Shown here: piece after piece, positions 2,396-12,598 of the stretch
How the letters are laid out: each line of letters opens with the position of its first letter
Position numbering within the stretch: position 1 is the stretch's first letter
NCBI GenBank assembly: GCA_024641705.1
Contig: JAHECO010000002.1
Span: forward strand, 134,282 to 198,281
Direction of reading: 5' to 3'
Origin: Candidatus Kryptoniota bacterium
GTDB taxonomy: Bacteria; Bacteroidota; Ignavibacteria; Kryptoniales; JAKASW01
DNA length: 64,000 nt
Program-made: the position numbers and the translations under genes
The notes under the pieces: generated by a model
What the model saw: the letters and a program-made list of their open reading frames with translations, nothing else
What the model was told of the DNA's origin: nothing
Databases searched by the model: none

Positions 2396-2483
2396 CACAT
2401 TACCTCTGTTGTGCACGCCTGCGTGCTGAAACTTTCGTGTTCGTTTTTTCGCGCCGCGAAGGCAGGCTCTTCGGCGTGCAAGC

Positions 2484-2555
<72 letters not shown>

Positions 2556-2559
2556 ATCT

Positions 2560-2622
2560 CACTCTTGGAATTCTCAATTCCAAATTCTTAGTTCCCAATT
2601 CAAAATTCAGAATTCAGAATTG
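2560..2622. repeat. AT-rich AATTC-type spacer repeat
   Basis: Between tRNA-Trp and rpmG the DNA is a run of short degenerate units (GGAATTCTCAATTCC, AATTCAAAATTCAGAATTC). The same kind of AATTC/AATTCAAAATT blocks recurs in the nuo operon gaps at 20943-21140 and 22406-22459. No function is evident. Confidence 0.5.
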
Positions 2623-2772
2623 TTATTTCGTCTCCTTGTGCGATGTGTGCTTGTTGCAGAAGCGGCAATACTTCTTGTATTCGACCCTACCTGTCTGCTT
2701 TTTCTTGTTCTTCGTCGTCGTGTAGTTGCGGTGTTTACAGACTGTGCACTCGAGCGTGACTATGTCTCTCAT
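2623..2772 (-). CDS. rpmG: 50S ribosomal protein L33
   Basis: A 49-residue frame from ATG 2772 reads [20 protein letters not shown] and later [18 protein letters not shown]. It has the L33 core with two CxxC pairs (C+ zinc-binding form). L33 sits near the E site of the large subunit. It lies between tRNA-Thr and tRNA-Trp, where rpmG is found in many bacteria between tuf and secE. Here tuf itself is missing from the cluster. No clear alternative start exists. Confidence 0.95.
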
Positions 2773-2827
2773 AATTCATCCTTAGTTAAGCACCGGCCGC
2801 GGCGGATTCTCCGCAGTGGATGGTGCG

Positions 2828-2900
2828 AGCTCACGACGGGACTTGAACCCGTGACCTACGCCTTACCAAGGCGTTGCTCTACCAGCTGAGCTACGTGAGC
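2828..2900 (-). tRNA. tRNA-Thr (GGT anticodon)
   Basis: Acceptor GCTCACG/CGTGAGC, D-arm TAGCTCAGCTGGTAGAGC, anticodon stem-loop CGCCTTGGTAAGGCG with anticodon GGT, and T-loop GGTTCAAGTCC. All stems pair. It is last of the Thr-Tyr-Gly-Thr set in transcription order. Confidence 0.96.
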
Positions 2901-3024
2901 GGACACAACATTTATAAAGAATACTGACGTGTTCGGTACGCCGGCGTATCCCGTGCATCGTTCATCATATATGAACCGAAAAGATGCTCAGCAACGCCTC
3001 CCCGAATCTGTAAGTTCGGGTGAG

Positions 3025-3097
3025 AGCGGGAGACGGGACTCGAACCCGCGACCAACAGCTTGGAAGGCTGTGACTCTGCCAACTGAGTTACTCCCGC
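3025..3097 (-). tRNA. tRNA-Gly (TCC anticodon)
   Basis: Acceptor GCGGGAG/CTCCCGC, D-arm TAACTCAGTTGGCAGAGT, anticodon stem-loop ACAGCCTTCCAAGCTGT with anticodon TCC, and T-loop GGTTCGAGTCC. Third in the tRNA run that matches the conserved Thr-Tyr-Gly-Thr order. Confidence 0.96.
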
Positions 3098-3250
3098 GTT
3101 CAGACTTCACACTTGAAAGAGCTTCCCGCGCAGAGATAAGACATCGGTACACAATGCAAGAAAGACCCTGCCTCGGGGGAGACCTGAGTGCTCCCTTATA
3201 TGTCAAAACAAACTTTTGTTCCAGGACCACAACGATCAACGAACAGGCGG

Positions 3251-3334
3251 TGGGCGGCGGGGGATTCGAACCCTCTAAGGCGTAAGCCAACGGATTTACA
3301 GTCCGCCCCGGCTCTCCAACTCCGGCGTCCGCCC
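3251..3334 (-). tRNA. tRNA-Tyr (GTA anticodon)
   Basis: A class II tRNA of 84 bases with a long variable arm. D-stem CCGG/CCGG pairs, and the anticodon loop in GGACTGTAAATCC gives GTA. The acceptor GGGCGGA pairs with GCCGCCC except for an A-G at its seventh position. The T-stem GAGGG/CCCCC has one A-C pair, and position 8 is C instead of the usual T. It is still very likely functional given its place in the cluster. Confidence 0.9.
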
Positions 3335-3415
3335 AAATGCATGCCTGCGTGCCGCGACGCCTACCTTCCGTATGAACAAGTCGGGAAGGTTATTCGGCGT
3401 ACAGGCTCGCAACCG

Positions 3416-3488
3416 AGCTGGCGAAGGGATTTGAACCCCCGACCTGCTGATTACAAGTCAGCTGCTCTACCAACTGAGCTACGCCAGC
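3416..3488 (-). tRNA. tRNA-Thr (TGT anticodon)
   Basis: Acceptor GCTGGCG/CGCCAGC, D-arm TAGCTCAGTTGGTAGAGC, anticodon stem-loop CTGACTTGTAATCAG with anticodon TGT, and T-loop GGTTCAAATCC. First gene of the tRNA/ribosomal run, about 20 bases after the predicted promoter. Confidence 0.96.
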
Positions 3489-3730: not shown

Positions 3731-6700
3731 TTACTTCATGAGTACCATCTTCCTGATTTCAACGAATGTGTTCACGTTGATCCGCACAAAGTACACGCCG
3801 CTCGGCAGGGACGATGCATCGAACCTCAGAGAATAATATCCCGCATTCTGCTGCTGCGCTACCAGCGTCCTAACGAGGCGTCCGGCGACATCGTACACCT
3901 TCAACTCAGTATACCCACTGGACGGTAGCTGGTAGTCGATCGTCGTGGATGGGTTGAAGGGGTTCGGATAGTTCTGCGAGATGCCATACTTGTCCGGGAC
4001 GGCAGGCCGGTCGCCCGCCACTGCCGTGATGACGAGGTTGGCCTCATTTGAGTACGCCGAAGAGACGTGCGAGTTGTATCCTCTCACCCGGTAGAAATAC
4101 GTGGAGCCTCCTGCGACCGTCGAGTCGGTGAAGGTTGTCACGCCTGCTCCTACCGAATCTATCTGCGCATAGGTTCCGCCCGAACCCGTCTTGCGTTCAA
4201 TCCGGAAACCGTCCTCGCTTGCCGAACTGTCCTGCCAGGTGAGAACCGCCTTCGGCCCGGGTGCCAGGGCCGCAGCCAATCCTGACGGAGGGCGCATTTG
4301 CGTCACGGCATTCCTCACGTTTGAGAACCCGGAATTGCCTCCGTCGTTGTACGCGTACACCCGGTAGAAGTACCGAACACCGTCGGTCAACCCGGTATCG
4401 GGGTAAGACGTCGAGTTGGCGGCAAGTGTCGCGACCACCGACCAGGCTGCTGTAGTGTCGAGTGCCCTCTGGATCTTGAATCCCGTTTCATTGCCCGAGT
4501 TATCGGTCCAACTTAAATTTATTAGAGAAAAACCTGCTGCCGTCGCGACCAACCCGGTCGGCGACGAAGGCACGGCCACTATCGTAGTAAAGTTCCAGAC
4601 GAGCGACCATGCACTTGTACCTCCTGGGTTCGAAGCGTTCACACGCCAGTAACACTTCGTTCCATGTGCCAATCCGACGACGCTCTTTGTGGTGGACGTT
4701 ATCCCCGAGCTGTCAATCGTCGTCGTACCGAACGAAGAATCCGTCGATATCTGGAGCCGGTAACTCACGGCACCCGCCGAGCTGTTCCATGCCATGGAAG
4801 GAGTGACCGATACCGAAGTTGCTCCGTTTGCCGGCGTCGCGAGTGTCGGAGCTGCCGGCGGGGCGACAGTCGTGGTGAAATTCCAAACGGAAGACCATGC
4901 ACCTGTTCCGCCGACATTACTTGCATCCACCCTCCAGTAGTATACGGTCGAGTTAGTGAGTCCGCTCAAGGCTACAGATGTTACTGCAAGGCCGCTCGAA
5001 TCAAGCACTGTAGTCCCGAATCCGGAAGACGTCGAAACCTGAAGCCTGTAAGTGGCAGCCCCGCTCGCAGCGTTCCATGTAATCGTCGGATTCAACGCCA
5101 CACCCGTTGCACCGTTCGCCGGTGCTGACGGCACCGGTGCCGGAGGAGGCGCAATGATTGTGGTAAAATTCCAGACCGACGACCATGAGCTGGTCCCGGC
5201 GGAATTGCTCGCGTTTACTCTCCAGAAATACTTCGTCAGATTTGCCAGTCCGCTCACAGTGACTGATGTCGTCGCAAGGCCTCCGGTATTGTACGCGGAC
5301 GTGGCAAAAGTCGAATCAGTCGAAACCTGCAGCCTGTACGTGGCGGCACCTGTTGAGCTGTTCCACGCGATCAGCGGACTTGTGCTTACACCCGTAGCGG
5401 CATTCGCGGGGCTTGAAAGTACGGGCACAAGCGGCAAGGCAACCGTAGTGCTTGTGACGCCGCCGCTTACCAGATAGCCCCTCGGGCTCCCTTCGTTCAG
5501 GAGGAACTGCTGAACCGTGAGAGAAGATCTCCATCCGGGAGTAACCCACGGTACGACCCGGAAGCGGATGGAGAAGATTACACCCGTCGTGGTGATGTTA
5601 GTGGTACCGGCGGCCGCGACGGTGATCGTATTGCCGGAAATGTTTGGCACATAAATCCAACCGTTCGTGAGAGTTCCCGTGCTTATGATCTCCAGCGGGT
5701 GTATGACCGATGAGTCGTATGTGATCGTCGCCTGCAAGCTGGAGACAGGGTTGCCCGGATCGACGGGTGCAATGTATACGGGAACATCTACCGTATCGCC
5801 GATCACTCCGACGGTATCCGGCACCCTAATCCTCGTATCGTAGATCTGGATCTGGCCCGAAGTCCCTCTGCCGCCATACACGTCCGTGGCTTTCACATTC
5901 ACAGTTCCACCTTTGACAGGACCCAAGAGGCCCGAACCACTGATAACCGCTATCGAAGAGTCCGTCGTCGACCACGAATAGGGCGGCGTTCCTCCCGAGG
6001 CTGTGAAAAGGAGCGTCTCGCCCTTCACGACGTTGCCTGAGTAAGGGCTTATGTTCAGATTTGCCAGATTGATTGTCGAGAAGTATCCGCTCTTCGCATT
6101 GCCGGACATGCTTTCGTTGAAGAGCGCATTAGCCGGCGTAATGTTGAATGACCCGTAGGACGTAGAGGAGACCTTGAACCGGACATAGATAAGCACGCCC
6201 CCTCCCGAGAGCGCGCTGCTTCCGGCAAACGAGATACTCACTTTACCCGCTGTCCCCGAGTTCACCGCCGCGGGATTGTACGATGACAGGACGGTACCGG
6301 TTTGCACGACACCCTGCACGCTCAGTATGTTTTGATTGAACGTTAGATCGAACGACCCCGCGGTCACGTTCAGACCTGTCAGATCCGTCACGTATACGGG
6401 AAGATCAAATGTCTGGCCCTGTATGATCGATGTATCAGGCGCCGTCAAGCGGAAGGCTCTGATCTCGATTTGGCTGTCCGTCGTGTCGACCGTTCCGATC
6501 GAGTCGGAAGCTATCACCTTCGTGAACCCTGCATGGAGTGCCCGGAGCTTTCCGGATGAATCGATGCTCGCGACGGTGCCGTTTGAAAGGGACCAGTGGT
6601 ACGGAGCAGTGCCACCGTAGACGGTGAACTGAAGACTGTCTCCCACTGTAAGGCTTCCCGATGAAGGGTAGACCGTTATAGTCGGGGCGGGTTGCAGGTA

Positions 6701-7156
6701 CATACTGCCGTTATGCCAAGAGATCGCAGGCGATCCCTCGTTGAAGAAGTTGTGTGCAGCATCGGTAAAGGACAGCGAGTAATAGCCTGTCCCAACGACC
6801 TTCATCCGGACGTAGAAAAGAATCCCAGTCCCGGTGAGTGCGGTTGTCCCCGCAGCGGCAACTGTGATCTTTCCCGGTGTGCCGGCATTGTAGGTGACAG
6901 TGCCGAGGGACTCGGTCATCGTTCCCGCCGTGATTATGGTGTCGGGTGCGAAGCCGTATGTGCTGTAACTGAGCTGCAGCTGGAAGGCGGTGACGTTCTG
7001 CCCGGTGAGGCTGCTGTCCACATAAACCGGAAAGCTGACCGTATTGCCCTGCACGACGGTAGAGTCATGTACGGAAATGCCGATAGCAGCGGCAGCCAGC
7101 CCGTTGAATGCCGGGAGAAGCAGGAGCGCGACCAGATATTTTAATGATTTAACCAT
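3731..7156 (-). CDS. Secreted T9SS cargo with cohesin-like, Ig-like and FN3 modules
   Basis: The 1141-residue protein starts with a signal peptide (MVKSLKYLVALLLLPAFNG). Three cohesin-like beta modules follow (about 25-155, 234-375, 441-575; each with a VPVYV-type strand, a GTAGKVSI/GKITVAAAGT strand and an ILFYVRMKV-type strand). Ig-like/BIG-type segments (TITVYPSSGSLTVGDSLQF) lie between them. Three near-identical FN3-like repeats follow (about 577-870, each ending WSSVWNFTT or similar), then two more FN3 units. The C-terminal ~80 residues are a type A T9SS sorting domain with NYPNPFNPSTTI. The protein should cross the outer membrane by T9SS and be held on or shed from the surface. No enzyme domain is visible. 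It pairs with the dockerin-bearing gene 78 bases upstream. Confidence 0.85.
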   Translation of the reverse strand: MVKSLKYLVALLLLPAFNGLAAAAIGISVHDSTVVQGNTVSFPVYVDSSLTGQNVTAFQLQLSYSTYGFAPDTIITAGTMTESLGTVTYNAGTPGKITVAAAGTTALTGTGILFYVRMKVVGTGYYSLSFTDAAHNFFNEGSPAISWHNGSMYLQPAPTITVYPSSGSLTVGDSLQFTVYGGTAPYHWSLSNGTVASIDSSGKLRALHAGFTKVIASDSIGTVDTTDSQIEIRAFRLTAPDTSIIQGQTFDLPVYVTDLTGLNVTAGSFDLTFNQNILSVQGVVQTGTVLSSYNPAAVNSGTAGKVSISFAGSSALSGGGVLIYVRFKVSSTSYGSFNITPANALFNESMSGNAKSGYFSTINLANLNISPYSGNVVKGETLLFTASGGTPPYSWSTTDSSIAVISGSGLLGPVKGGTVNVKATDVYGGRGTSGQIQIYDTRIRVPDTVGVIGDTVDVPVYIAPVDPGNPVSSLQATITYDSSVIHPLEIISTGTLTNGWIYVPNISGNTITVAAAGTTNITTTGVIFSIRFRVVPWVTPGWRSSLTVQQFLLNEGSPRGYLVSGGVTSTTVALPLVPVLSSPANAATGVSTSPLIAWNSSTGAATYRLQVSTDSTFATSAYNTGGLATTSVTVSGLANLTKYFWRVNASNSAGTSSWSSVWNFTTIIAPPPAPVPSAPANGATGVALNPTITWNAASGAATYRLQVSTSSGFGTTVLDSSGLAVTSVALSGLTNSTVYYWRVDASNVGGTGAWSSVWNFTTTVAPPAAPTLATPANGATSVSVTPSMAWNSSAGAVSYRLQISTDSSFGTTTIDSSGITSTTKSVVGLAHGTKCYWRVNASNPGGTSAWSLVWNFTTIVAVPSSPTGLVATAAGFSLINLSWTDNSGNETGFKIQRALDTTAAWSVVATLAANSTSYPDTGLTDGVRYFYRVYAYNDGGNSGFSNVRNAVTQMRPPSGLAAALAPGPKAVLTWQDSSASEDGFRIERKTGSGGTYAQIDSVGAGVTTFTDSTVAGGSTYFYRVRGYNSHVSSAYSNEANLVITAVAGDRPAVPDKYGISQNYPNPFNPSTTIDYQLPSSGYTELKVYDVAGRLVRTLVAQQQNAGYYSLRFDASSLPSGVYFVRINVNTFVEIRKMVLMK

Positions 7157-7234
7157 GCTTCACCTGTAGTTATCGGCGGAACCGCGGCGCGGACATATAG
7201 CCTGTTCGCGTCGCGCTCTGTTCCACCGGCGTGA

Positions 7235-10200
7235 TTACCTGATCAACACCAGTTTCTTTGTCTGCACGAACTTCCCCGCCTCGATGCGGTAGAAGTATGT
7301 TCCGCTGCTTACCTGGATGCCGTGGTCGTTCGTACCGTTCCAGACCGCCTTGTACACGCCCGCTCTCTTTGTATCGTTCACGAGCGTCTTGACTGTCTGT
7401 CCCAGAATATTGTAGATGACCACGCGTACCCTGGTATTGTCATCGGGCAGTTGATACTGGATCGTCGTCGAGGGGTTGAACGGGTTCGGGTAGTTCTGTT
7501 CGAGCGCAAAGGATGTAGGCCTCCCGAGTACTTCAACCTGTCCCGCCGAGGTTAGCTTCGTTAAATCACTTTCATTGGCCATGAACCTGACGATGGTTAT
7601 CGGTGAGTTGACCTTTCCGCTGACATCGTCGGACGCTCTAAACTGCATGAGAGCGACTGCGCCGTCCGTATTGAGTACGCGCGCGCCCGCCATGGCCACG
7701 TTCAGGATTCCCCTTTCTTTGTCGTTTGAAAATGCCATCGAGAATCCTTCGTTTATTTCTCCGGTCGTCACCTTCTCGAAGGCGAATATCTTAGGATCGT
7801 ACTTCACCGTAACCTGCACTGAGGTCACGCCGTCGACATTCATAAGGTTCACCGGAACGACGACGGAATCGCCTCTATCCACCGAAGCGCTGGCGAGGGC
7901 TAGCCGTACTCCCGACACTTTCTGGAGTACAAGCTGGTCTCTCGTTGCAGGGCTAAGTTGTTTCATATTGCCGCTGGCTTCAGCCGGGAACCCCGAGATG
8001 AGACCGACCACGTACTGCAGGACAAGCGACGCATCATAGGCTGTCACGCCGCTGGCTCCGCTGACATCGGCCACGCGCAACTGGATCTCGTTCAGCGAAT
8101 CGGGGCCGGTCGGATTCACGACATATTTAAGTATGAGTGATCCGTCGTATGCCTGGACGGCACCGTTGAGGCTCACATCTCCTTCGATCGGGTTCGACGC
8201 ACCGGATCCCAGGTACGGGCTGTACCTGACCGAATCGGTGATGCTCTGCCCCGTCCCGCCGGGGTTCGACGCATGAGTGGGTCCGGTGTTGCTTCCCCAC
8301 CAGTTCCAGCGTGCGTCGATATTGAACGACTTGTTCACGTTGTTCACGCCGTCCCCGGAATTGCCGTAAATATCGGAATAGTTCACGACCGGGTTCGAAG
8401 CGCCGCCGGCCTTGATGCCGTCGTAATTGTTTGTGATGCTGCAATAGGTAATTGTCGGGCTTGCGTTAGTGGTCGTGATCGCCGCCCCTGAGTAATTCAG
8501 CCCCGCATACCTTATGATACAGTGGCTGAGCTGGCAGAGGTTGTCCAACGATTGATCGGCAAAGGAAATGCCCGACCAGCCCGGGTACCAGTACTGCGGG
8601 TACGTAAACACTGTAGGAGTCGAGTTCGCACTGTCAGCATTTGTATCGCCGCCATAGAAATCATCGCGCAAATCAGTGAATACGATTGTACTGTCCGGAG
8701 TCGGTCCGCCGACCGCTATTAAGCCTTTATTCACAGTCATGCCGTTACCGGGGAAGAACTTCAACACTACGCCGGGCGCGACGGTAAGGACCGCGTTGCT
8801 CGCAACCGTGTAGTTGGCAAAAACATACGGAATGTTTGTCCTGCCGGCGAAATTCCGCTTCGGCAGAGTGACATCCTGGACAAGCGTTTCGCTGATCACA
8901 CCGATTGCCCTGTAAGTCGTCCCCGTTATTGAATCGGCAAGCGTGCTCCTGGGATAAGAGACAAGCGACGTTTCAAATGGACCGTAAGTGAGATCCCTGA
9001 AGAGACATGAATCGAGTGCGGGGTTCGAGACGCCGTTCAGGAACAGCCCCCAATTCGTGTGATCGAAGGTACAGTTATTAACATTGGGTCCTGCCTGCTG
9101 GAGATATATGCCGATGTCGGTGTATCTGAATAGTGCGTGCCGGACCGTACTCAGACTGTCCGTACTAACATCGTCGAAATAGAACCTATTCCCGCTTGCG
9201 ATGCCGGGCTGGGTTGCGGATCCGTCACCGTTGGTATCGCCGGGATTTCCGTAGTTGTCATCACGAGGATCGGTAAACACAACCGGTTGACCGGATGTAC
9301 CGGCAACCGCAATCGCACCGTCGATCGTCCAGCCTCCTCCCTTGAACACCACTCCGGCAGGTATGGTAATGACGGTCCCGGTGTTTATCGTGCAGGTGGA
9401 GTACATGTAATATGTGATGTTCGTGTAACCCGCGAAATCCCTGATCGGGACCGTCGCGTTCACGGAATACGTCTCGGGTACTATGCCCAGTGCCATGTAC
9501 CCGACATTCTGTGCGGAGTTGTTCGTGAACGTCGGCGTCGAGAACATGCTCATCGAGACGGGCGTCGAGTTGACGTTGTTGATCTGGGAATTGGAGATCG
9601 TCGGGTGCGCGCTCCCGAACGAGCCTATGCCCGCCGTATTTGACTGCTCAAAGATGCAGCTGTCGGCTTTCAGGGCCGCGTTGAAGACCCGCATTTCTCC
9701 GTAGCGGTAGTAATATTCATAATAATTGCTGCCGCCGTACCTGAAGTCGCAGTGCTTGAGGGAGTTCAGCGAGTCGAGACTTGAGGCATTGAAATCCGCC
9801 GTGTTCCAGTCTCCCCTATTGGGAGTACTTGAATTGCCGTCGTTATTCGTATCGCCGCCATTGGAGTCATCTTTGAAGGATGTGAAGACGATTGGAGCGG
9901 TTGCAGTTCCGTCGGCCACAAGGGCGCCGTTCACCGTGATCGAGGCATAGTAACTGGAGAACTTCATGACCACGCCGGGATTGATCGTCAGGACCGCGCT
10001 CGACGCGATCGTGAGATTATCGATGATGTACGCAATGTTGGCAATGCCCGCCATGCTGCGGGTGATCAGGCTTGCATTGGAGGAGAGTGTACCCTCGAGT
10101 ATCCTGATTCCGTTGCTCCCGTTCGCGCTGAAGGTAATGTTCGTGAATGTCGGGTTCGAAAGAAGCGACATCGCGATCGGGTCGAGCCGGCAGTTAGCTA

Positions 10201-12598
10201 TTGTGACGTTATTTACGAGCGGAGTCGAACTGTTCTCGCATCTCACTCCGTAGTTGTATGAATCCGAGAGTGTCGAATTGGATACAACCCCTCCTGCATC
10301 CGTAAACGTCACGGCTCCCCAGCTGCTGCTGCCGCCGAATTTCACGAGGCAGCTGTCCAGGAGGCAGAACCCATCGTCGCTCGTTGCCTGGTATCTTATG
10401 GTGCTCCAGTTCCCGGCCGCCGGGGACGTTGCGGCACCGTCGCCGTTAGTATCTCCGGGATTGCCGAAATTGTCATCCTTCAGCGAAGTAAAGACGACCT
10501 GGCCTCCGGCCATAGTGCCCTTGGCCTTGAAACCGCCGTTGACGTATAACCCTGGACCGTTGGATTTTATGACAATTCCCGCGTCGACGGTCACGTTAGT
10601 GCCGGAATTAATCGTCGCGTCGGCAAGCAGGACATACGTGATGTTCGCGTAACCCGCCACAGTCCTCTGCTTCACGGTGCCGGTTGAAGCTACGTATTCT
10701 CCGATCAAACCGAGTGCAACCCAACCCGCGTTGGTGAAGGTGTTGCCGGTAAAGGTTGGATCAGCGGAAAAGGACATCGCAATCGGTGTATACTGGCTGT
10801 TGAAGATCGAGTTGTTCAGTATCTTCGGCTTCGAGCTCAGGGCGGCATATATACCGTAGACCGAGTTTCCGATCTGGCAGTTCGAAATGGTCGGACTGGC
10901 ATTGATCGTCGTGATCTCGCCCTGATAGTAGTAGGTCGAGTTATAATAGTATAGGTAATACGGACTCAGGCTGGCGTAGGTAACGCGGCAGTAATTCATT
11001 ACGGATGCCGTGTCGCTTCCAGGCTCGAACACGATCCCGGCCCAGTCGCCGACCTGCGGAGTAGTGGCATTCCCATCCTTGTTCGAGTCCCCGGGGTTGC
11101 CGAAGTTGTCGTCCTTTGCCGAAGTGAATACGATCATGCTGTCTGCAGAAGCATTGGCGACAAGTTTACCCTGGACCACGATCCGCTGGTAGTACTGATA
11201 TCCTTTTATGACTATACCCTTGTTGATCGTCATAGTCTTACCGACGGGGACGACGACGTAATCGAGCAGCAAGTACGTGACGTTTGGAATGCTTGTCACC
11301 GACCTGATTGGAAGTGTCGCGTCGGTAGTCAGTGTCCCGCCGAGGAGTCCTATGGCATCATACGTATTGTCCGAGAACGAAAAGCTGTTGTTGCTGAATA
11401 CAGGGTTCGCATCGAACGACATAGCTATGGGAACGAGCTCGCTCGATCCGATGGTGTTATTGGTGAATACCGGATTGGAGGCTCCCTGCATCATGGCGCC
11501 AAAATGGTTGTTCGCCATACTGCAGCTGTCTATCATCGGGCTGGCGTTGTACATCGTTATGCCGCCAGTACTCCCAGCGCCCGCGAATGTAACGGTGCAC
11601 CTTCTCATCACCGATATAGAATCCATACTGATGTCGTTGAAGGCCACTCCGTACCAGTTGTTGGTCTGTGGCTGCGTCCCCGACCCGTCGCCGTTCGTGT
11701 CTCCGCCGAGGTTGTCGTCTTTGTACGAAGTGAAGTAAATACTCTCTCCAACCCCGGCGATTGCCACGAGCGCGCCGTTGACGACGAGATGGCCGCCGTT
11801 AAACTTCAGAATATTGGTTGAAGCGATCTGCAGCGTCTGGCCGGCATTCACCGTGAAATCACCCGGGAAAACGTAAGGGATCGAAACCGTATCCAATACC
11901 ATCGAGTTCGTGGAATAGTAATTCATATAAATGCCGTTATGCGTGTTCCCGCTGAAAGTATTGACTCCGTTGAATACCAGAGAGGCGTTCCCGTTTTCCT
12001 GTATCGGCCAGGGACAGGATGAGATCGAAGAACTGCTGAAGGTTATCGTTGTCCCCGTTGTGAACTCGAGACCGTTGCCGGTACAGTTCGAGATAACAGC
12101 ATTGCCCATTGACAACGATCCACTCCCCACGTATACACCCCGCGTGCTGGAAGTCGTCACCGCCGCGCCGTTGCCGTTTATCGTGACGTTGCCGCTGTAG
12201 ATATAGAGCGATGCATTTCCGTTGGAACCTCCGAAACTTATCAGGCAGCTGTCGAAGGTGGCATTAGGGCTTGCGCTGTAGGAACCTATCTGGATCCCGC
12301 TCCAGTCGCCCTTTTGCGGAGTTCCGCCGGCTGTATCCTTATTTGAAGTGAAAGTCGCCCAGCGTGCCACGATATTGCCGTTGGCGGTCAATGCCACACC
12401 GGTCATGAACCGGATGACTACCCCCGAGTCGACGGTCAGCGTATAACCCGGCTGAATAGTCAGGGTGCTGACGACAACGTACGGGCTGTTCGCCAGAGTA
12501 AGAGTTGAGTCTGTTGCGATCGTGCCCGAAAGATTTGTCTGCCCCATGGCAAGTCCCCCGAAGAGGGAGACAAAGACTGCGGTAAAGAAAAAGCGCAT
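7235..12598 (-). CDS. Giant secreted beta-helix protein with dockerin, cohesin and T9SS sorting domain
   Basis: The 1787-residue protein has a signal peptide (MRFFFTAVFVSLFGGLAMG). The next ~1450 residues are a parallel beta-helix of about seven cassettes, each with a KDDN(F/Y)G..GDTNGDG..P..(G/N)W block, a CxxxF/Y(G/A)G strand and an ASPTI..C.. strand; the helix ends in WNWWGSNTGPTHASNPGG. A type I dockerin-like pair follows at about 1471-1540 (GDVSLNGAVQAYDGSLILKY and ADVSGASGVTAYDASLVLQY). Then come a cohesin-like domain (about 1564-1690) and a T9SS type A sorting domain (last 94 residues, NYPNPFNPSTTI). It is likely surface-displayed and structural or polysaccharide-binding; catalytic residues of a polysaccharide lyase could not be assigned. 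An AAAGGAG ribosome binding site precedes ATG 12598. Confidence 0.85.
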   Translation of the reverse strand: MRFFFTAVFVSLFGGLAMGQTNLSGTIATDSTLTLANSPYVVVSTLTIQPGYTLTVDSGVVIRFMTGVALTANGNIVARWATFTSNKDTAGGTPQKGDWSGIQIGSYSASPNATFDSCLISFGGSNGNASLYIYSGNVTINGNGAAVTTSSTRGVYVGSGSLSMGNAVISNCTGNGLEFTTGTTITFSSSSISSCPWPIQENGNASLVFNGVNTFSGNTHNGIYMNYYSTNSMVLDTVSIPYVFPGDFTVNAGQTLQIASTNILKFNGGHLVVNGALVAIAGVGESIYFTSYKDDNLGGDTNGDGSGTQPQTNNWYGVAFNDISMDSISVMRRCTVTFAGAGSTGGITMYNASPMIDSCSMANNHFGAMMQGASNPVFTNNTIGSSELVPIAMSFDANPVFSNNSFSFSDNTYDAIGLLGGTLTTDATLPIRSVTSIPNVTYLLLDYVVVPVGKTMTINKGIVIKGYQYYQRIVVQGKLVANASADSMIVFTSAKDDNFGNPGDSNKDGNATTPQVGDWAGIVFEPGSDTASVMNYCRVTYASLSPYYLYYYNSTYYYQGEITTINASPTISNCQIGNSVYGIYAALSSKPKILNNSIFNSQYTPIAMSFSADPTFTGNTFTNAGWVALGLIGEYVASTGTVKQRTVAGYANITYVLLADATINSGTNVTVDAGIVIKSNGPGLYVNGGFKAKGTMAGGQVVFTSLKDDNFGNPGDTNGDGAATSPAAGNWSTIRYQATSDDGFCLLDSCLVKFGGSSSWGAVTFTDAGGVVSNSTLSDSYNYGVRCENSSTPLVNNVTIANCRLDPIAMSLLSNPTFTNITFSANGSNGIRILEGTLSSNASLITRSMAGIANIAYIIDNLTIASSAVLTINPGVVMKFSSYYASITVNGALVADGTATAPIVFTSFKDDSNGGDTNNDGNSSTPNRGDWNTADFNASSLDSLNSLKHCDFRYGGSNYYEYYYRYGEMRVFNAALKADSCIFEQSNTAGIGSFGSAHPTISNSQINNVNSTPVSMSMFSTPTFTNNSAQNVGYMALGIVPETYSVNATVPIRDFAGYTNITYYMYSTCTINTGTVITIPAGVVFKGGGWTIDGAIAVAGTSGQPVVFTDPRDDNYGNPGDTNGDGSATQPGIASGNRFYFDDVSTDSLSTVRHALFRYTDIGIYLQQAGPNVNNCTFDHTNWGLFLNGVSNPALDSCLFRDLTYGPFETSLVSYPRSTLADSITGTTYRAIGVISETLVQDVTLPKRNFAGRTNIPYVFANYTVASNAVLTVAPGVVLKFFPGNGMTVNKGLIAVGGPTPDSTIVFTDLRDDFYGGDTNADSANSTPTVFTYPQYWYPGWSGISFADQSLDNLCQLSHCIIRYAGLNYSGAAITTTNASPTITYCSITNNYDGIKAGGASNPVVNYSDIYGNSGDGVNNVNKSFNIDARWNWWGSNTGPTHASNPGGTGQSITDSVRYSPYLGSGASNPIEGDVSLNGAVQAYDGSLILKYVVNPTGPDSLNEIQLRVADVSGASGVTAYDASLVLQYVVGLISGFPAEASGNMKQLSPATRDQLVLQKVSGVRLALASASVDRGDSVVVPVNLMNVDGVTSVQVTVKYDPKIFAFEKVTTGEINEGFSMAFSNDKERGILNVAMAGARVLNTDGAVALMQFRASDDVSGKVNSPITIVRFMANESDLTKLTSAGQVEVLGRPTSFALEQNYPNPFNPSTTIQYQLPDDNTRVRVVIYNILGQTVKTLVNDTKRAGVYKAVWNGTNDHGIQVSSGTYFYRIEAGKFVQTKKLVLIR

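Follow-up and report, generated by a model that had tools for sequence, protein, structure and literature searches.

A conserved dockerin and cohesin gene pair of predicted T9SS cargo and its possible role as an enzyme-free surface adhesin or coat

Introduction

Cohesin-dockerin coupling is known mainly from the degradation of plant cell walls. In Archaeoglobus fulgidus, the cohesin and dockerin proteins come from adjacent genes. These archaeal modules are non-cellulosomal, and their strong mutual affinity has led to their use as a binding pair (PMC9705933). One study describes archaea with cohesin or dockerin domains as lacking large multi-cohesin scaffoldins (PMC9012536). For the consortia or biofilm that ANME archaea form with syntrophic sulfate-reducing bacteria, cohesin/dockerin proteins have been proposed as adhesins (PMC9012536, PMC10553843).

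Among bacteria, a scaffoldin of Candidatus Stygibacter (Cloacimonadota) was reported with CBMs in the scaffold and with dockerins on GH18, GH57 and peptidases (PMC8542988), and the cellulases of Melioribacter roseus were reported to carry no dockerin or scaffoldin domains (PMC3534657). In type I dockerins, symmetrical repeats allow dual binding modes (PMC12484212).

Here we describe two adjacent genes, A and B, encoded in the window, which is the whole 64,000-nucleotide stretch of Candidatus Kryptoniota DNA that was analysed. A literature search, mostly of non-subscription papers, turned up no account of paired T9SS dockerin and cohesin genes from this group. We conclude that A and B constitute a conserved two-gene unit and that they are probably a binding pair.

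The gene pair and its surroundings

The features of the two genes are summarised in Table 1. The product of A matches the Pfam families Beta_helix (E 7.6e-43), Cohesin (E 1.9e-14), Dockerin_1 and Por_Secre_tail, with only Beta_helix/NosD found by Pfam in its N-terminal part, while the product of B, which begins 78 bp downstream of A on the same strand, matches Cohesin in three stretches (E 3.1e-25) and also Por_Secre_tail. The dockerin and cohesin of A are separated by about 20-30 aa. Along the beta-helix, six DxNxD-type loops recur about 200 aa apart (motif positions 300, 504, 716, 916, 1121 and 1318), a spacing that would be compatible with a long calcium-stabilised stalk. In B, the Ig-like spacers between the cohesins are two Big_2 domains and the FN3 region, judged by ortholog coverage, is mostly missing or weakly matched in several orthologs.

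Table 1. Features of the A-B locus, with positions given in the window.
Feature	Position	Strand	Basis
Gene A, 1787 aa: signal peptide, beta-helix, dockerin, cohesin, T9SS type A tail	7235..12598	-	ORF and Pfam
Right-handed beta-helix of A, ~1,450 aa	8204..12541	-	Pfam Beta_helix, 8 stretches
Dockerin of A, two repeats with AYDxSLxLxY in each	7976..8188	-	Pfam Dockerin_1 and alignments
C-terminal cohesin of A, fast-evolving	7523..7912	-	Pfam Cohesin, 58.9 bits
T9SS C-terminal sorting domain of A	7238..7501	-	TIGR04183, E 1e-9
Gene B, 1141 aa: signal peptide, Coh1-Big2-Coh2-Big2-Coh3, FN3 repeats, T9SS tail	3731..7156	-	ORF and Pfam
Cohesin 1 of B	6698..7084	-	Pfam Cohesin, 27.8 bits
Cohesin 2 of B	6101..6451	-	Pfam Cohesin, 45.5 bits
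Cohesin 3 of B	5456..5833	-	Pfam Cohesin, 42.9 bits
FN3 region of B	4022..5404	-	Pfam fn3, 5 stretches
T9SS C-terminal sorting domain of B	3734..3979	-	TIGR04183, E 5.3e-12
tRNA genes Trp, Thr, Gly, Tyr, Thr, between B and the nusG region	2482..3488	-	

The original prediction, that two adjacent genes encode large T9SS cargo, is borne out by the two open reading frames and by the presence of TIGR04183 on both products. T9SS machinery is also encoded in the genome (SprA_N, E 5.8e-45) and, on the evidence of this component and of the two tails, A and B are predicted to be T9SS type A cargo. As each protein carries its own T9SS tail, neither would need its partner for export.

A RecQ-like gene lies upstream of the pair on the opposite strand, and downstream lie five tRNA genes and a nusG-rplK-rplA region, the latter named from its translations. 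A scan for promoters and terminators gave sites that were no more numerous than in shuffled sequences. Spread by plasmids was rejected after a plasmid collection gave no match, as was a phage origin, A having no PHROGs match.

A search of the whole genome for other dockerins, which had been suggested earlier, yielded only two proteins above the cut-off, A and one further protein on contig C55. The latter, a T9SS protein of 1609 aa (G000:C55:4690-9519, locus L197), is, apart from A and B, the sole protein of the genome with cohesin or dockerin modules above the cut-off, and it is self-contained, with the layout Coh-Doc-Coh-Coh-Doc-Coh and without a separate cohesin gene adjoining. No recognised catalytic family was found in either dockerin protein of the genome, and neither A nor B has a carbohydrate-binding module that Pfam recognises.

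Identity of the cohesin and dockerin modules

Each module was cut out and scored singly. All four cohesins, the three of B and the one of A, exceed the curated cut-off of the Pfam Cohesin family (PF00963, 24.1 bits), and the dockerin of A, taken alone, reaches 30.0 bits where Dockerin_1 (PF00404) requires 22.9, and is of type I. The earlier reading of three cohesin-like modules in one gene, and of a cohesin-like domain beside a dockerin in the other, is thereby upheld, with the Cohesin, Dockerin_1 and T9SS type A profiles all matched. No rival Pfam family, Ig/BIG families included, rose above its cut-off for any single cohesin or dockerin module.

An AlphaFold2 (AF2) model of the dockerin-cohesin segment of A was obtained with a pLDDT of 89.3 and a pTM of 0.86, and the PDB matches listed by Foldseek for it were cohesins or cohesin-containing chains (E 4e-12), including the non-cellulosomal Archaeoglobus cohesin 2xdh (E 1.2e-11). 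The five-domain core of B was modelled as five beta domains with a pLDDT of 86.4 and a pTM of 0.53, values which indicate well-folded domains with a mutual arrangement that is not fixed in the model. When the whole core was used with Foldseek, multi-Ig chains dominated and a cohesin dyad appeared from rank 35, single modules not being separable in such a comparison. The cohesin assignment of the predicted B modules rests, instead, on profile matches: a profile of the B-type cohesins, compared with the PDB, matched nothing but cohesins and modules resembling them, the cohesin-like one of NagJ being among the weakest matches. On this result and the single-module Pfam scores, the reading as plain Ig/BIG domains was rejected, and the model of the A cohesin likewise returned cohesins rather than the Ig/BIG folds that would have spoken against the original prediction.

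The dockerin peptides quoted earlier are exact and correspond to residues 1473-1492 and 1510-1529 of A. The description of this dockerin as degenerate holds for only one of its loops. Loop 1 retains D1-S3-N5-D12, a complete set of ligands with Ser at position 3, while loop 2 lacks the position-5 ligand (GASG), such that a full calcium ligand set is not present in both loops. This loss is seen in the source genome and a few relatives; dockerin alignments show N or D at the position in most relatives. The calcium-loop/helix unit is duplicated, a helix following each loop in the AF2 model.

Conservation of the gene pair

Orthologs of A, at 75, 67, 65, 59 and 52% identity, were found in two more members of the genus and outside it in two other families, and a third genome of the genus carries a split copy. 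The gene order in these loci is always dockerin gene, then cohesin gene. Among 61 relatives surveyed, 19 of 39 dockerin ORFs had a cohesin-only ORF within 5 kb, with 0.19 expected by chance. Counted by genome, both kinds of ORF occurred in 19, cohesin only in 12, dockerin only in two and neither in 28 (Fisher p 7e-6, a nominal value which overstates significance given that homologous loci are non-independent).

Of 395 genomes from the phylum, 35 matched a profile of the three-cohesin core of B. The first 22 loci read that have the full core include 21 in which a dockerin-T9SS gene lies directly upstream on the same strand, with gaps of -14 to 75 nt, and in the remaining one (L257, 6595-17046) the order is dockerin gene, a gene for a 335-aa single-cohesin protein, and three-cohesin gene. 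Loci with the full three-cohesin core occur in the Ignavibacteria and, in several cases, in other classes of the phylum. In addition, named contigs of Calditrichaeota (L040), Neomarinimicrobiota (L045) and Balneola (L081) have the pair layout, the three cohesins being spaced identically in Balneola; in Zixibacteria (L080) the gene order is reversed. The pair is thus a conserved two-gene unit. A third conserved gene was sought and rejected, as any one flanking gene recurs at a few loci at most. What adjacency and co-inheritance demonstrate is that the two genes are functionally coupled, not that their products touch.

Several other arrangements were seen during the survey. One genome (G008) carries two copies of the pair, on contigs C25 (L204) and C26 (L205), and beside the L205 copy the recQ-like gene and the next gene along are both retained. 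At L203:8810-12175, a Big_1 dockerin protein ends in the dockerin and has no T9SS tail, and the single-cohesin gene downstream encodes one. A further genome (G048:C1, ~2209-2260 kb, L193) contains an array of about a dozen ORFs of ~1,050-1,150 aa whose match to Dockerin_1 is limited to its first half; in the single ORF of this array that was scanned, the T9SS tail was the sole further Pfam domain.

The domains of the pair differ in their rates of change. Over seven A orthologs, mean pairwise identity is 73% for the dockerin and 36% for the adjoining cohesin, and the dockerin value is the higher in all 21 pairs. This cohesin is the fastest-evolving domain of A, with 23-64% identity to the window sequence, and several orthologs from other classes retain the dockerin but show no detectable match to this cohesin. 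Across orthologs, loop 1 of the dockerin shows D1, S/T3, N/D5 and D12, and a helix motif, [AS]-x-D-[AG]-[SA], follows both loops with few exceptions and is kept across classes. The cohesins of B average only 28-34% identity across pairs. Mirror-distance correlations did not discriminate between candidate partners, lying at 0.58-0.74 for the dockerin against the B cohesins and at 0.72 against the A cohesin.

Some loci retain the beta-helix of A at 40-67%, and others match it only in part. The N-terminal parts of related dockerin proteins consist of a beta-helix, FG-GAP repeats, Big_1, InlB-like repeats or nothing recognised, and the dockerin-cohesin coupling is therefore more constant than its cargo. 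No recognised catalytic family was found on the dockerin or cohesin proteins scanned, comprising the window pair, the C55 protein and relatives. This, with the occurrence of a single further dockerin protein in the genome, supports the non-cellulosomal use that had been suggested for the modules.

Cohesins in cis or in trans

A further comparison employed a profile of the dockerin-cohesin segment alone, B not being used, and yielded 38 matches in the class, which were sorted by hand. Where the dockerin has no adjoining N-terminal cohesin, a cohesin gene lies immediately downstream in 23 of 25 cases; where such a cohesin is present, a downstream cohesin gene occurs in two of 13 (Fisher p 4e-6, again nominal and overstated by the non-independence of homologous loci). 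In a larger, partly selected set the corresponding counts are 33/38 and 4/14. Nearly every dockerin of this type is thus supplied with a cohesin, either fused or adjacent. Taken with the conserved gene pair, this complementarity favours the original suggestion that A and B are putative partners.

Proposed role and alternative explanations

On balance we favour, with some confidence, a scheme in which A and B are co-expressed partners exported by the T9SS, the dockerin of A docking on the cohesins of B to produce an enzyme-free surface adhesin or coat. In this scheme the B cohesins would capture the calcium-type dockerin of A extracellularly, with B acting as a trivalent receptor that could gather up to three long beta-helix A proteins, and the product would be an adhesin or a coat layer at the surface. 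In its favour are the conserved gene order, the cis/trans complementarity of the cohesin and the stronger conservation of the dockerin than of the A cohesin. The ligand loss in loop 2, the separate T9SS tails of the two proteins, the cohesin within A itself and the high pTM of the dockerin-cohesin model may count against docking of A on B and, if that segment is closed, B would need to open or bypass it.

In an alternative that we regard as unlikely though worth weighing, the dockerin of A is filled by its own cohesin in a closed, non-polymerising cis unit, or by that of the next A protein in a homopolymer, and the B cohesins bind something else or serve as spacers. The proximity of the two modules and the higher pTM of their model, relative to that of the five-domain B chain, are in its favour, as is the finding that Coh-Doc-Coh sister proteins are usually without a separate cohesin gene. 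It leaves unexplained, however, the constant adjacency of a three-cohesin gene, and the A cohesin evolves fastest and is undetected in several orthologs of other classes while the dockerin persists. It is improbable, to a greater degree, that the dockerin and cohesins no longer bind and that they persist as calcium-stabilised linkers and beta-sandwich spacers in neighbouring T9SS surface proteins; the degenerate loop 2, the divergence of the B cohesins and the Ig-like and FN3 spacers around them would suit such a role, but the dockerin helix motifs conserved across classes, the cis/trans complementarity and the conserved pairing argue against it.

A right-handed beta-helix is the fold of many polysaccharide lyases, and the pair could, in principle, form a degradative complex resembling a cellulosome, with the A beta-helix serving as a polysaccharide lyase or hydrolase that has gone unrecognised. 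A precedent has been proposed in the Cloacimonadota, where a cohesin scaffold carries a surface-attachment domain and is accompanied by dockerin enzymes (PMC8542988). We consider this very improbable for A and B, given that the Pfam search found only Beta_helix/NosD in the N-terminal part of A, no recognised catalytic family in the dockerin proteins scanned and no CBM in A or B, and that no dockerin enzyme was found in the genome. A cellulosome proper was rejected, as no dockerin-bearing catalytic subunit was found in the genome and no CBM on B.

If docking of A on B is correct, a conserved T9SS unit free of recognised enzymes and CBMs would represent cohesin-dockerin coupling used to build the cell surface. 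The pair supplies specific partners for a binding test, one dockerin and three cohesins, and the exchange of cohesins between cis and trans constitutes a natural experiment indicating which cohesin each dockerin is paired with. The modules may also supply new orthogonal binding pairs. More tentatively, and with somewhat less than even confidence, we suggest that T9SS-exported, enzyme-free cohesin-dockerin pairs could be a general surface-assembly module of the Bacteroidota and neighbouring phyla, occurring in two interchangeable layouts, a dockerin protein with a separate cohesin receptor gene or a fused self-assembling protein, and forming an adhesive layer or a coat in which beta-helix proteins are often the material.

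Comparison with known systems

The Archaeoglobus fulgidus system resembles A and B in carrying cohesin and dockerin outside a cellulosome, and its cohesin 2xdh is matched by the model of the A cohesin, but it is archaeal and without a T9SS. The clostridial type I pairs share the same module families and the symmetrical dockerin repeats; A and B differ from them in having no catalytic subunits or CBM, in their T9SS tail in place of SLH or sortase attachment, and in Ser/Thr at loop position 3. The scaffoldin of Candidatus Stygibacter is like B in its tandem cohesins and conserved C-terminal surface-attachment domain, whereas no enzyme or CBM was found with A and B. The systems of the ANME archaea and their partners are similar in being unlinked to cellulose degradation, in having several cohesins per protein and in their adjacent cohesin and dockerin domains; they belong to other phyla, and the relevant passages of the two studies make no mention of T9SS export or of a conserved two-gene unit. 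Non-cellulosomal cohesin-dockerin adhesins have thus already been proposed in other lineages, and the T9SS two-gene unit described here adds a variant to them.
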